Assembly (NCBI GenBank): GCA_020353355.1
Contig: CP070694.1
Span: forward strand, 598,250-635,200
DNA length: 36,951 nucleotides
Direction: 5' to 3'
From: Desulfobacterales bacterium
Lineage (GTDB): Bacteria; Desulfobacterota; Desulfobacteria; Desulfobacterales; JAHEIW01
Below, piece after piece: positions 22,850-28,735 of this stretch; position 1 is the first letter of the stretch, and every line of letters begins with the position of its first letter. The notes under the pieces were generated by a model. It saw only the letters and a program-made list of their open reading frames with translations. It was not told where the DNA came from and searched no databases. The position numbers and the translations under genes are program-made.

Positions 22850-23155
22850 TTACTTTTTAGAAGGGTATGTCCCAAAAATGTATTCATCGTATTCGGTTGG
22901 AAACTCCAGGAACTGCTCTAATCTAGCTTCATTTGCTCGGCGCTCTCTATTATCCTTCCAGGACAACCAATGTTCTATGCTCTGCCACGTGGAAATTACT
23001 AGCAGACGGCGAGGGTCGTTATAGCTCATCAGCGTTTCACCGGTGATATATCCTTTTTGATTCATAGCATCGGCACGCGCCTTGTTCAGCAGCGCAAAAA
23101 CCTCTTTCGTCTTACCCTCCTTTATGTGCCGCTTAATCATAACCTTAACTGCCAT
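22850..23155 (-). CDS. antibiotic biosynthesis monooxygenase (ABM) domain protein
   Basis: The product is a 101-residue small cytoplasmic protein with the ferredoxin-like ABM fold. It starts AVKVMIKRHIKEGK, continues with a helix through LLNKARADAMNQKGY, then LLVISTWQSIEHWLSWKDN, which is the family's conserved strand-helix W....W..W region. Members include quinol monooxygenases and heme-degrading enzymes, but many small ones have no known activity. Heme-ligand residues cannot be assigned. AAGGAGG precedes the ATG at 23155. It lies 68 bp after the TRAP-caspase stop on the same strand and before a good terminator, so it may be co-transcribed as the last gene. Confidence 0.85.
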   Translation of the reverse strand: MAVKVMIKRHIKEGKTKEVFALLNKARADAMNQKGYITGETLMSYNDPRRLLVISTWQSIEHWLSWKDNRERRANEARLEQFLEFPTEYDEYIFGTYPSKK

Positions 23156-23223: not shown

Positions 23224-25362
23224 TCACTGTTTTGTTGCCCGCCTAAAGACAAAGTCACCGCCATCATGTCCTGAGTTTCGGATGGTATTGTATTCAGGCA
23301 CCTGTTCCGCATTGCCGGCGACGCGTTCTTTGATGTGTTCGAAAAAAAGCTCCTCTGCCGTAAACATTTTTTTATCAATATTTTTCAGCCCTTCGATAAA
23401 TGCAGCCGCAAAAACAGAATGACCGGCTCCGCCGCTATCAGTTACGGGTTCGTTACCACCACTGGCCAGCAGGGTTCGCGAACTTTTCTGTAGCATCTTT
23501 TTTAAATATCGGTCTCTTTCTGAAATGGAGCCGAGGTTCGTGATGGCGCTTCGGGTTAATGTTCCCGAATAACAGCTGTCTGCAACCACCAGAATATGCT
23601 TGGCCGTGATTCGCTTCAAATTTGAGGTAATCGTATCAACAATTATCCAGTTGGTATCATCATTGCTTTGGGCATCCACCGGCAGCCAATAGGCTTTCGC
23701 GGCGATGCTGTCAAATTGACCATGCCCGGCATAATAAATTAACAGATGATCATTGGGCGTTAGGTTTTTTCTGGAATTGTTGACGGCTTTCAGAATCTGA
23801 TTTCGGGTGCCGTCCAGCAAAAGGGTCGTATGAAACCCAAATTCTTTTTTCAGGACGTCAGCGACTTCTTCGGCATCTTTTTTTGCAGTTTGCAGTTTTG
23901 GAAGGTAGGTATAATTATTGTTTCCGATGATCAGCGCATAATAGGCCCCGGACGAGGGCAATGTATCTTTCTCCTTTGCTGTCGGTGTTGATGCCGCGGC
24001 AGATAATGTTTCACGTTTGATCGTTAGAGTTTGGGTCGCTTTATTTTCATAGATATCCATGGCACTGATCGTTAGCTCATTGGTGCCAACCTTCAAATAC
24101 ACCTCTGCGGCAAAATTTCCTTCTTCATCTAACTGCGCTTCTTTATCATTGACATAAACCACTGCTGTGCCAGAGTCATCGCTGGCTTTTCCTTTGACGG
24201 TAACTTTATTTTCTCGGTGAACGACATTCATTCCTCTGAGGCTGTGAGAAGTTATCACAATATCCGGCGGGGTCGTGTCGCGGCGGGTGCCCACAGCCGG
24301 GATCGGGGATGGTGCCGGGCCGGGCCGGGCAACTGAAGAACGAAAAGCCCTTTGATCTGCATAAATCCGTTGGAAATCCTTATGATTTACCGATAGGTTT
24401 GCGGATACCTCCTGCCAGGCTTGACTTGCTGCAGATATAATGCTGGAGGGCAATTCACTTACCTGAACACCCCGGCTGCGAATATCATCGAGGGCCAGAT
24501 CGATCAACCGCTGCTCTGCGGCCATACCGAAAAGGACGTTTTCATGGCAGACTTGCTTGATGAGCTGCTGCTGGGCAGGCGCCATTTGATTCCAGACATC
24601 GCTGTTGATGATTAAGTCAATCATCGTAAACGGTTGATGCCAGCCGGGGTAGTAATAGGTTTTGGCGGCTTTGTCAAAATTCATCGACTTGTCAATATAA
24701 GGGGTACTGAACTCCGTTGCATCGATGATATTATTTTCAAGGGCCGGCAATACCTGTTTGGACGGCAATTGAACAACTGAAGCACCAATTTTTTTCATGA
24801 CCTTGCCACCCAACCCATGAAAGCGAATTTTTAAACCTTTCAAGTCGCTGGGGTCATTGAGCGGACGTCGAAACCAGCCCCCACCCTCTGGCCCCAGCAT
24901 ACCGGCCGGGATAGGCTTGACATTGTAACGGGCATAGAGCTCTTCATATAAAGCCCCACCGCTTCCGTTGATAATCCAATCGTAATGGTCGCTGGCCGAA
25001 AGAGCAAATGGCGGTCCCCAAAAGATATGAAATGCCATATTTTTTTGACTCCACATCCCTGCTGCAGCCCAGCCCGCATCTACGGTTCCTCGCCCGACAG
25101 CATCAAGAATAGCTGATCGATAGACACTGGTATCCGGTTCATAAAGCTTGACGTTGATTTGTCCCTTAGAGCGCTGATGAATCTCGTTGGCAAATCGCTT
25201 GGCCAGTGAACCCAGCAGAGGCATTCTGGTAGGATAGCCCATCGCCATCCTCAATTGTAAGGAATCTGCAGCGTGAGTTTTATGGAAGGCAAACGTCACA
25301 AAAAGCAAGATGGTCACGGCAACAAAAATAAAACATGCTTTTCTGAATCCAATAGGCTTCAA
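23224..25362 (-). CDS. exported TRAP solute-binding domain / Ig-like domain / caspase (C14) fusion protein
   Basis: Counted from TTG 25362, the protein has 712 residues. That start sits six bases after GGGAGG and yields a clean Sec signal peptide (KPIGFRKA, hydrophobic core, cleavage near THA at 31). Residues 36-340 form a DctP-type TRAP solute-binding domain, with the ligand-binding Arg in DLKGLKIRF near 180 and the TakP-like segment ALENNIIDATEFSTPYID, then YYYPGWHQP. After a Pro-rich linker, about 365-448 is an Ig-like domain (TTPPDIVIT, VYVNDKEA, KVGTNELTI). The rest, about 473-712, is a caspase-like domain with GNNNY, the catalytic His547 in YYAGHG, Cys597 in ADSCYSG, and the family end GGDFVF. 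No TRAP permease genes are near. It is probably periplasmic, with the binding domain as sensor. I know of no described protein with this build. Confidence 0.9.
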   Translation of the reverse strand: MKPIGFRKACFIFVAVTILLFVTFAFHKTHAADSLQLRMAMGYPTRMPLLGSLAKRFANEIHQRSKGQINVKLYEPDTSVYRSAILDAVGRGTVDAGWAAAGMWSQKNMAFHIFWGPPFALSASDHYDWIINGSGGALYEELYARYNVKPIPAGMLGPEGGGWFRRPLNDPSDLKGLKIRFHGLGGKVMKKIGASVVQLPSKQVLPALENNIIDATEFSTPYIDKSMNFDKAAKTYYYPGWHQPFTMIDLIINSDVWNQMAPAQQQLIKQVCHENVLFGMAAEQRLIDLALDDIRSRGVQVSELPSSIISAASQAWQEVSANLSVNHKDFQRIYADQRAFRSSVARPGPAPSPIPAVGTRRDTTPPDIVITSHSLRGMNVVHRENKVTVKGKASDDSGTAVVYVNDKEAQLDEEGNFAAEVYLKVGTNELTISAMDIYENKATQTLTIKRETLSAAASTPTAKEKDTLPSSGAYYALIIGNNNYTYLPKLQTAKKDAEEVADVLKKEFGFHTTLLLDGTRNQILKAVNNSRKNLTPNDHLLIYYAGHGQFDSIAAKAYWLPVDAQSNDDTNWIIVDTITSNLKRITAKHILVVADSCYSGTLTRSAITNLGSISERDRYLKKMLQKSSRTLLASGGNEPVTDSGGAGHSVFAAAFIEGLKNIDKKMFTAEELFFEHIKERVAGNAEQVPEYNTIRNSGHDGGDFVFRRATKQ

Positions 25363-25610
25363 TAATATCCTCCCTAACTGCAGACACACCAGCGCAGTAT
25401 TTCGAGGATTTACCCGCCCGCGGCAGGTTTTTTCCGCCTTTTGTGTGGCGGAGAACGTGACACAGCTTGCCCGCCCACCTGCCCGCCACAGCCCGGAACC
25501 GGAAGCATTTACGGTGGCTCATCGTCGGAAGTAAAGGCCGGTAATTGTAGAAAATAGCCGGGGTCGGTTGGGCTTGAGATTGAGTTATGGTGCTTATTGT
25601 TATTTGTTCA

Positions 25611-25801: not shown

Positions 25802-26713
25802 CTAGTCACGGCGGCCCATCCTGTCCAGGGTGGCCCACAGACCGCCTCCCAGGATCAGCCCTCCAAAGACAAAATGGATCACTCCCAGCGACTCATCAAG
25901 GAAGGCTGCTCCTAAGATAACCCCGTAAAGGGGCAAGGTATTGTAGAAAACCATAGCCCCGCCGGCCCCCAGGGTCCTGACAGCGCGGTTCCAGGACCAA
26001 TAGCCGATGATGGTTGGAACAACACAGATGTGGACGATGGCAGCGATAGTCCCCATCCGAAGGTTTGGGGGAATGTGTTGAAGCTCGAGCGCGGCGGCCG
26101 CCGCGATCAAGGGCAGGCTCAAGAAGTTTGACAGGGCTGTCGCCGCAACCGGGGATCGGTGGCGCATAACCCGGCGGCCGAAGACAGAGTAAAAGGCCCA
26201 GACTACAGCCCCGGCCAGAAGGATAAGATCTCCCGGGTTAAATTGGAGTTCAAGCAGAAACGTAAGCGAACCGCGCGACAGTAATCCCGCCACCCCGATG
26301 AGACCAAAGACCGCGCCTGCCAGCTGCCGCCTGCTAACCGGCTCCTGAATGATCAACCCGGCGATCAGGGCTGTAATCAGCGGCGAAAATCCTTGAATCA
26401 AAGAACAATTAACCGCGGTGGAATACCGTAGTCCCAGATACAGCAGAGGGCTGAAGCCGACCACACCGGCCAGACCCATGGCCATAATCCACCATTTATC
26501 TTTACCGTAACGGCGCTCCTGCGGAGGTCTGCTCCTGAGCAGGATGCCAAAAAAGGCAGCAGCCACGGTGAAACGCAGCGCGGTGAGTGTCAGGGGTCCG
26601 ATATCGGCACGCAACCAACGGCCCAGAACAGCGTTGGTGGCCCAGCACATGGTTGCCAGGTTGACGAATAGCACCCCCAGGATACGTGTCCGCCAGGTTA
26701 CGGAACCATTCAA
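25802..26713 (-). CDS. EamA (DMT superfamily) transporter
   Basis: The 303-residue inner-membrane protein has ten predicted helices arranged as two EamA repeats, residues about 12-140 and 155-290. The first helix region NLATMCWATNAVLGRWL and the TALRFTVAA of helix 2 are typical of the family, as is GAVVWAFYSVFGRRV at the start of repeat two. Members export or import amino acids, metabolites or nucleotide sugars. The specific substrate cannot be read. The start is TTG at 26713, supported by AGGAGG seven bases upstream; the ATG overlapping it at 26709 is out of frame. It is 146 bp downstream of the M19-like dipeptidase on the same strand, which could supply a dipeptide or amino-acid link. Confidence 0.9.
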   Translation of the reverse strand: MNGSVTWRTRILGVLFVNLATMCWATNAVLGRWLRADIGPLTLTALRFTVAAAFFGILLRSRPPQERRYGKDKWWIMAMGLAGVVGFSPLLYLGLRYSTAVNCSLIQGFSPLITALIAGLIIQEPVSRRQLAGAVFGLIGVAGLLSRGSLTFLLELQFNPGDLILLAGAVVWAFYSVFGRRVMRHRSPVAATALSNFLSLPLIAAAAALELQHIPPNLRMGTIAAIVHICVVPTIIGYWSWNRAVRTLGAGGAMVFYNTLPLYGVILGAAFLDESLGVIHFVFGGLILGGGLWATLDRMGRRD

Positions 26714-26859: not shown

Positions 26860-28674
26860 TTATCTTCGACGGCTCCGGTGAATTTTCTCCCACATGCGGA
26901 TGTAGACTTCGGCGGAGTTGAAGAGCGGTTCGAGATCCGCTTCGGTCAAGCCCACATTCGTGAGGTCTTTGACGAAGTCGGGAAGCAGACCCACGTGCGC
27001 CAGACCATCTGTGTTGAAGTCGAATTCGCGATCCCCGGTCACCTGTTTATGGAATACCCCGCGCACACCGACGGCCCGAAATGGATACTTCAGCGAGGGG
27101 TAATCGGAGGCGTCGCATTTTTCCGTATCCGGACATCGCGGAGCGGTCTGCTCAAACAGTGCCCCCCAATCGCTGGCGAAAGCGATGCCGGGGTACTCAG
27201 ATCCGTAAGGTCCGTCTTGCATAATCTCTTTGATGTAGCGGTACATCTCGACGTAATTTTGGGTGGAGCTTCCCTCTTTGCGGGGATTCAGCGGTGCAAC
27301 GATGCCGCCCAGATCGCGAATAATTTCGATCTGTTCTTTGGTCCGGTGTGCCTCGCTGCGCATATCATATTTGCCCCATTCGGTTAAGGGGCGGTCAAAT
27401 AAAAATGTGTGGCTGGAGATCACCGGATAGTCTCTCGCCAGGGCAATTTGCAGCACTTTATCAAGAGCCAGGAGCGACAGGTGATCGACGTCGATGATCA
27501 TCTTTTGATCCATCATTGCGTTAATCAGAACCTCGCCTTTATCGGTCAGACCCTTGTTGTTGCAGTGGTAATCAATGTCCCGCCAGTTTATTTCCGGAGC
27601 AGAAATCCCCCCTTCAGACAGGAGATCTTCAAAATCGTCCATTACAAACTCTTGCTTGATGTCATCAAAGATGTTCCAGTTATAATCAGACATTCCTAAC
27701 AGTTCCAAAGAATCTTCCAAAGAAGCGCATTCAACCGGGTTCATGTCGGTACCGGTCGCTATGCGATTGGCGATCAACCATAGCCAGTAATAAAGTGCGG
27801 CTCCGGAGAACAGGTTGTCGTGAAGGTGCACCGGGAATATATGGCGTACGCCCATTTTGTAGTAACGTTCGAGTTGGATGCGAATATTTTCATCCTCACA
27901 GGTGCTATTGGGTTTGCACCCGAAAAGGGCGTCCGCCTCGATGCCGAGCACGACGGCCATCTGGCCCTTACGGATGGCCCGGCGCGCCGCATGCGGCGTC
28001 TTCACGATGCGGTACCATCCCTTACCCTTGCCTCCGAACTTGGCATCGATGAACTTCTCCAGGTTCTTCGCTGCTCTGATCTGCTCATCCACGGTGGTCA
28101 TGTCGTCGCAAAAACGAAATTTATACCGTTGCCTGTGGAGCTTGCAAATCACTTCATTATTCACCGCTAGCATCACCATCAGGCGCAGCCCGCCCTTGTA
28201 GGCCCGTTCCAGCCAGCGATAGTACATCTGTTGGTGTAGCATCGTGTTCCACCTGGGCCAGGCATCGAACGAACGCCAGCCGTGCGCTGAGTGTTCCCAT
28301 CCTTCCCCCATAATTAGGCTTATCAGTCTCCCCGTCATGCTCTTGTGGATTGGGTAGCCATGACGTGTGGGAAGCGTAAGATGGTCTCCACGCCATAAAG
28401 CGAACTCTTTGGTGAAATCACAACCGGAGAGCGCCGCGCGAATGCCTCTGCCGCGCTCATCGTATGGTTTGCCCCACAACAACGCACCGCCGAACGCAAG
28501 GTTCGAGAACTGGTGGGTGTGGGTGTCGGCGATACCGCGAACGGGTCCCCACGGTGGTTGCTGCTCCACCACACCATCGCAGCTGCAGTCGGGTTCTTGC
28601 GACCCGACCTGCGCCGGCAGCAGCAGTGTCATCAAAACGATCAGGCAATACACCACAGGGGTCCTGCGTGCCAT
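26860..28674 (-). CDS. large exported M19-like (membrane dipeptidase) metallohydrolase
   Basis: The protein is 604 residues from ATG 28674, after AAGGAGG. A signal peptide ends near VGSQ (about residue 25). All metal-ligand positions of renal dipeptidase have counterparts: D-x-H in IADTHTHQF (50-54), the bridging Glu246 in VLGIEADAL, His398 in IIDVDHLS, His422 in VISSHTF and Asp502 in IAFASDWGA. GVRHIFPVHLHDN and GLTDKGEVLINAM also match M19. The usual family length is about 330-420 residues, and the excess lies in an N-terminal segment (about 60-225) and a cysteine-containing insert (about 290-375). It likely hydrolyses dipeptides or related amides in the periplasm. The DTHTH motif is closer to general amidohydrolases, so substrate range may differ. 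Confidence 0.85.
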   Translation of the reverse strand: MARRTPVVYCLIVLMTLLLPAQVGSQEPDCSCDGVVEQQPPWGPVRGIADTHTHQFSNLAFGGALLWGKPYDERGRGIRAALSGCDFTKEFALWRGDHLTLPTRHGYPIHKSMTGRLISLIMGEGWEHSAHGWRSFDAWPRWNTMLHQQMYYRWLERAYKGGLRLMVMLAVNNEVICKLHRQRYKFRFCDDMTTVDEQIRAAKNLEKFIDAKFGGKGKGWYRIVKTPHAARRAIRKGQMAVVLGIEADALFGCKPNSTCEDENIRIQLERYYKMGVRHIFPVHLHDNLFSGAALYYWLWLIANRIATGTDMNPVECASLEDSLELLGMSDYNWNIFDDIKQEFVMDDFEDLLSEGGISAPEINWRDIDYHCNNKGLTDKGEVLINAMMDQKMIIDVDHLSLLALDKVLQIALARDYPVISSHTFLFDRPLTEWGKYDMRSEAHRTKEQIEIIRDLGGIVAPLNPRKEGSSTQNYVEMYRYIKEIMQDGPYGSEYPGIAFASDWGALFEQTAPRCPDTEKCDASDYPSLKYPFRAVGVRGVFHKQVTGDREFDFNTDGLAHVGLLPDFVKDLTNVGLTEADLEPLFNSAEVYIRMWEKIHRSRRR

Positions 28675-28696
28675 GGTGTTTCCTCCTTTCTCCACT

Positions 28697-28735
28697 AAAA
28701 AAGTGAGGCAAGTGTTTATGGGCAACTCGCTTTTT
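28697..28735. terminator. hairpin with A and T tracts between two minus-strand genes
   Basis: AAAAAAGTGAG at 28697-28707 pairs with CTCGCTTTTT at 28726-28735, with one wobble. The flanking A and T tracts would let it work as a weak terminator in either direction. It follows the 88-residue protein gene and lies just upstream of the ribosome binding site of the M19-like gene. Confidence 0.4.

Follow-up and report, generated by a model that had tools for sequence, protein, structure and literature searches.

TakP (SmoM) of Rhodobacter sphaeroides (2hzk/2hzl) is a TRAP receptor in which the ligand and its cation are held by Y100, Q156, R177, E214, W215 and E240, with Tyr100 as the sole ligand contact from domain I, and in which a dimerisation helix spans residues 326–365 (PMC1839085). 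In HiSiaP, the substitution E172R abolishes docking and growth but leaves sialic acid binding unaffected (PMC9352664). For bacterial caspase homologues, the survey PMC3501461 names accessory domains without settling what they respond to; it also proposes an extracellular location for bacterial caspases and already in 2012 listed an ANF_receptor–metacaspase of Cyanothece sp. PCC 7424. Paracaspases are said to be absent from prokaryotes in PMC6426788, which searched with three Ig Pfam models only.

Here we describe a gene of a Desulfobacterales bacterium that encodes a TakP-like receptor domain, an Ig-like domain and a caspase domain in one chain. An accessory domain with a well-studied ligand pocket is a concrete candidate input for a bacterial caspase homologue.

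The fusion gene and its caspase half

The gene lies in a 36,951-nt stretch of DNA (the window), which is positions 598250–635200 of the one 5.31-Mb contig that makes up the source genome (estimated completeness 84.7%). The fusion is matched end to end in that genome at C1:621476–623638. The initial annotation described one unbroken frame beginning at 25362; the frame itself holds, whereas 25362 proves to be an internal codon, nine residues past the GTG start at 25389 (Table 1). The order of parts proposed for that frame, namely a signal peptide, a DctP domain, an Ig-like domain and a caspase domain with both catalytic residues, is borne out by Pfam and by the sequence, and each of the motifs named earlier (KIRF, DATEFSTPYID, YYYPGW, YYAGHG and DSCYSG) was found. 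Pfam places DctP at residues 59–331 (135.9 bits against a cut-off of 23.4, E = 2.3e-39), Glucodextran_B, which has an Ig-like fold, at 393–459 (35.5 bits against 27) and Peptidase_C14 at 484–701 (83.4 bits against 21.4, E = 3e-23). The apparent signal region has a basic n-region and a hydrophobic core, ACFIFVAVTILLFVTFAF, with cleavage likely after THA, and is predicted as a long hydrophobic helix in the full-length AF2 model.

Table 1. Features of the fusion gene and its neighbours, in window coordinates.
Feature	Position	Strand	Details
Fusion protein gene	23224..25389	(-)	721 aa; GTG start; stop 23224-23226; no internal stop
Putative Sec-type signal region, aa 1-40	25270..25389	(-)	Read from the sequence by eye
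TakP-like DctP (TRAP receptor) domain, aa 41-355	24325..25269	(-)	Pfam DctP; PDB matches 4yzz, 7ug8, 2hzk
Pro-rich linker, aa 356-370	24280..24324	(-)	Alignment; stands where the dimerisation helix would continue in TakP
Ig-like domain (Glucodextran_B), aa 371-462	24004..24279	(-)	Pfam; common to caspase relatives; all-beta in model
Caspase (Peptidase_C14) domain, aa 478-721	23227..23958	(-)	Pfam; AF2; Foldseek
Catalytic His556 (YYAGHG)	23722..23724	(-)	Invariant in 51/51 and 37/37 aligned sequences
Catalytic Cys606 (DSCYSG)	23572..23574	(-)	Invariant in 51/51 and 37/37 aligned sequences
Arg189 = TakP Arg177 / HiSiaP Arg147, carboxylate-binding Arg	24823..24825	(-)	Kept; alignment
Gln212 = HiSiaP Glu172, permease-docking residue	24754..24756	(-)	Alignment; role from PMC9352664
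ABM-domain protein gene	22850..23155	(-)	Downstream neighbour, 68 bp past the fusion
EamA transporter gene	25802..26713	(-)	Upstream neighbour, 412 bp from the fusion

The Ig and caspase domains belong to a widespread set. Their nearest relatives (60% identity in G036, 58% in G070, 53% in both G058 and G051) align from about residue 326–367 of the fusion to its end and differ in their N-terminal parts, which across the set include ankyrin repeats (L011), extra Ig-like repeats (L031), WD40 (L044), an SH3 match (L040) and a LpoB/CsgG-like match (L047), as well as regions without an assigned domain, with a coiled coil also present among the relatives. Because close relatives carry unrelated parts at this end, the N-terminal slot is modular. 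Among the matches listed, the set occurs in Desulfobacterota, Nitrospinota, Nitrospirota, Acidobacteriota and Pseudomonadota, and most of its members have an apparent export signal.

The catalytic apparatus of the fusion is intact, and Asp505 and Asp604 are, like the dyad, invariant across 51 aligned sequences. We take these two residues to lie at the MALT1 S1-pocket acids Asp365 and Asp462, the structural alignment being displayed only over the part that contains Asp505. Judging from this pair of acids, the fusion caspase should cleave after Arg or Lys. The AF2 model of the Ig and caspase domains has a mean pLDDT of 86, with the Ig domain predicted to be all-beta, and Foldseek returned MALT1 paracaspase as its best match, followed by GSU0716 and metacaspases. 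Just past the catalytic Cys, residues 608–614 (window 23548–23568) have pLDDT values below 50 and include the nearly invariant Arg613; this loop is possibly a self-cleavage site.

None of the paracaspase-type Ig models PF00047, PF13895 and PF13927 matched the fusion ahead of the p20 region. Bacterial caspases with a Glucodextran_B-type Ig-like domain immediately ahead of p20 number several dozen (one alignment includes up to 36 besides the fusion; loci L039–L117). The statement that prokaryotes lack paracaspases may depend on how the Ig domain is defined, given the three models used in PMC6426788.

The receptor half and its missing permease

The nearest solved chains to the DctP domain are TRAP receptors, including TakP (2hzk) and 7ug8, a "ketoacid-binding protein". 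Its closest free-standing relatives are TakP-like receptors from the same order and phylum (36–41% identity), and each of the 13 nearest such loci examined (L121–L131, L020, L023) is immediately followed by genes for DctQ and DctM. Tree building puts the domain on a long branch beside this transport clade (length 1.54 against a median of 0.22), with modest support for the join (87/54). Elsewhere, a DctP match at G034:C10:64763–65587 lies within a 555-residue open frame, about 200 residues above the usual length.

The carboxylate Arg and most positions of the cation site are retained. The six TakP residues Y100, Q156, R177, E214, W215 and E240 correspond to Met112, Glu168, Arg189, Glu226, Phe227 and Gln252 of the fusion, and to Y, E, R, E, F and Q in its transport clade. 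Thus, Glu168, Phe227 and Gln252 differ from TakP in the same way as the clade does, and the ligand and cation site formed by Arg189, Glu226, Glu168 and Gln252 is that of the nearest transport receptors; the carboxylate Arg is present in 50 of the 51 DctP sequences compared. The exception is Met112, at a position that is Tyr in all 10 aligned relatives. This replacement suggests that ligand binding may be altered or lost, although we rejected it as proof of lost binding on its own, since L020, a transport-linked receptor, also has Met here.

With the HiSiaP sequence checked against PDB chains 2cex/2wyk for residue mapping, its docking Glu172 falls on Gln212. Every one of the nearest transport receptors has Glu at this position, as does the rest of the wider TakP clade compared, and TakP has Asp. 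We rejected the idea that the docking Glu is universal among DctP proteins, since in a wider sample of 50 other sequences 44 have an acidic residue here and six have A, P or K. Homology of the fusion to TakP also stops at about TakP residue 340, cutting the swapped-dimer helix of about 40 residues, after which the Pro-rich linker begins.

The initial annotation had also reported that no permease gene lies in the window, and tblastn of its 36,951 nt agrees, with no DctQ and no DctM match; the nearest DctM is about 59 kb away. Across the whole source genome there are 18 DctM matches, several without an adjacent DctP. The best of these reach 37–38% identity to the DctM subgroup cognate to the nearest DctP relatives, within which identities are 66–82%, so none of the 18 belongs to that subgroup. 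One DctM match (G000:C1:2389897–2391180) sits in a 714-residue open frame with room for a DctQ–DctM fusion, and further dctM matches of this genome are partial, which may reflect decay or sequence errors.

The fusion gene is flanked instead by EamA, ABM and amidase genes. Co-transcription with the ABM-domain gene is possible, and we saw no sign in the gene context of a functional link between the two. The adjoining amidase has 82% identity to its orthologue in a genome of the same genus, which lacks the fusion; that orthologue (G001:C1:1709763–1711193, L137) contains an in-frame TAG, and the surrounding gene order is rearranged relative to the window. Also in the window, a 621-residue protein (26860–28725, minus strand) has a Peptidase_M19 match confined to its C-terminal third; searches of G070 and of the other five genomes from its family found no relative.

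Readings of the fusion

Loss of the docking Glu, truncation of the dimer helix, the absence of nearby dctQM and the part-swapping habit of the caspase family together make a well-supported case that the receptor domain has left its transport role and become joined to a protease. Our preferred reading, to which we give about an even chance, is that an exported Ig-caspase gene acquired a TakP-type TRAP receptor domain as its N-terminal part. The DctP domain would no longer serve a permease; its task would be to sense a signal for, or to target, a protease outside the cytoplasm. It would shut around a small carboxylate and a cation, and either this movement or the binding of a partner would determine how active the caspase is or where it sits. 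The least certain step is ligand gating, which is a plausible conjecture. The narrower proposal, that TRAP domain capture produced an extracytoplasmic caspase whose direct switch is a small organic acid held by the one-time transport receptor, is doubtful. The initial annotation had suggested that a small organic acid, perhaps an alpha-keto acid, may control a periplasmic caspase-like protease; that view is partly supported, in the fusion, the export signal, the TakP-like domain and the dyad, and an alpha-keto acid is a candidate ligand. In the full-length AF2 model, in which pLDDT is mostly below 50 over the DctP region (DctP homologues were lacking in the input), the receptor, Ig and caspase domains are predicted to be separated by flexible stretches at 354–361 (pLDDT below 50) and 465–471, which argues against tight allostery.

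Flexible linkers of this kind would suit an arrangement in which the DctP domain serves purely for scaffolding, adhesion or targeting: it would hold in place a caspase that is always active, or regulated in some other way, and convey no ligand signal. Elsewhere in the set this slot is filled by obvious binding scaffolds (WD40, ankyrin, SH3 and Ig repeats), and both Met112 in the ligand site and the long DctP branch are compatible with such a role. Nonetheless, a pure scaffold would have no need to keep the carboxylate Arg and four other TakP ligand and cation positions as they are in the transport clade, and we rate this explanation as unlikely.

It is distinctly improbable that the DctP half still serves as a transport receptor for a DctQM encoded elsewhere, with the caspase as a passenger or trimming off free receptor after export. 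A partner could come from the several DctM genes that have no DctP next to them, and receptors can dock even with something bulky attached, since the docking model accommodates the TakP dimer (PMC9352664). However, such a receptor would have to dock with Gln212 in place of Glu and with its dimerisation helix cut at the join, in a genome that lacks DctM of the cognate subgroup.

A recent, non-functional accident, neutral or decaying, in which both frames happen to have stayed open, seems to us a similarly poor prospect. The initial annotation had asked how many genomes share this build; it was found in one genome only, and the region lacks synteny with the same-genus genome. Several hundred genomes, drawn in overlapping samples from the order, class, phylum and family, gave no second DctP–Ig-caspase by whole-genome tblastn, and the fusion as sole query gave no match among GTDB genome contigs. 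The Ig-caspase alignment matched at least 79 GTDB loci, and among the matches listed none encodes a DctP domain, even at an E-value threshold of 1. Scans of viral contigs gave three weak caspases and no DctP. Plasmids carry DctP and caspase matches in large number, but each lies apart from the other kind and none covers 80% of the fusion query. In these searches the protein is a singleton, and with a single example there is no cross-species conservation to show that the fusion has been kept for function. Against an accident stand more than 700 open codons, the retention of the catalytic and most ligand residues, and a join that falls exactly on domain edges; if the divergence of the DctP domain from its nearest relatives (37–41% identity) came after fusion, the frame has also been open for long.

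An artefact of assembly or base-calling that fused two genes is very improbable: indel errors may exist in a single-contig genome of this completeness with several partial dctM matches, but the gene lies inside the 5.31-Mb contig, the Pro-rich linker is in frame at the domain boundary, and only about 16 residues separate the final DctP-homologous from the first Ig-homologous residue in the alignments. Most Ig-caspase relatives, read by eye, have their own N-terminus resembling a signal peptide or that of a lipoprotein, and this gap leaves no room for the start and signal of a second gene, so that a lost stop between two ordinary genes does not explain the sequence either. The join thus appears to be real, and an assembly error unlikely.

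Comparison with known systems

The initial annotation knew of no described system of this kind. We likewise found no literature on DctP–caspase or receptor–protease fusions, or on a TRAP receptor as an accessory domain of a caspase; the claim is too broad, however, in view of the ANF_receptor–caspase listed in 2012 (PMC3501461) and of a caspase half that belongs to a widespread modular set. Relative to TakP and the keto-acid receptors 7ug8, 4yzz, 5cm6 and 4pet, the fusion has the same fold, with homology over about 310 residues, and shares with TakP the carboxylate Arg, Glu214 and most cation-site positions. It differs from TakP in the attached Ig and caspase domains, in Met for Tyr100 and Gln for the docking acid, in a shortened swapped C-terminal helix and in the lack of adjacent dctQM; for TakP Gln156 and Glu240 it has Glu and Gln, like its Desulfobacterales clade. 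The locus illustrates how a transport receptor can be put to new use once it has parted from its permease and given up the docking residue and the dimer helix. With bacterial caspase homologues (orthocaspases, C14), the fusion shares the p20 fold, the His–Cys dyad, the acidic S1 residues and a modular build; a TRAP receptor as accessory domain goes unmentioned in the available parts of PMC3501461 and PMC6426788.

MALT1 paracaspase, the best structural match, resembles the fusion in having an Ig-like domain adjoining the caspase and conserved acids that set Arg specificity, whereas the fusion has a bacterial Glucodextran_B-type Ig domain, is apparently exported and lacks a death domain. The ANF_receptor fold is of the type I periplasmic-binding kind. 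The Cyanothece sp. PCC 7424 protein, so far as its published listing goes, likewise joins an extracellular small-molecule-binding domain to a caspase in one chain, with control of the protease untested there too; it differs in its receptor fold, which is not TRAP-derived, and in its cyanobacterial host. If ligand gating proved true, a single protein would suffice to place a protease outside the cytoplasm under metabolite control. Modular bacterial caspases, one of them with a ligand-binding domain, were already known, and what is new here is the TRAP receptor as the accessory domain.
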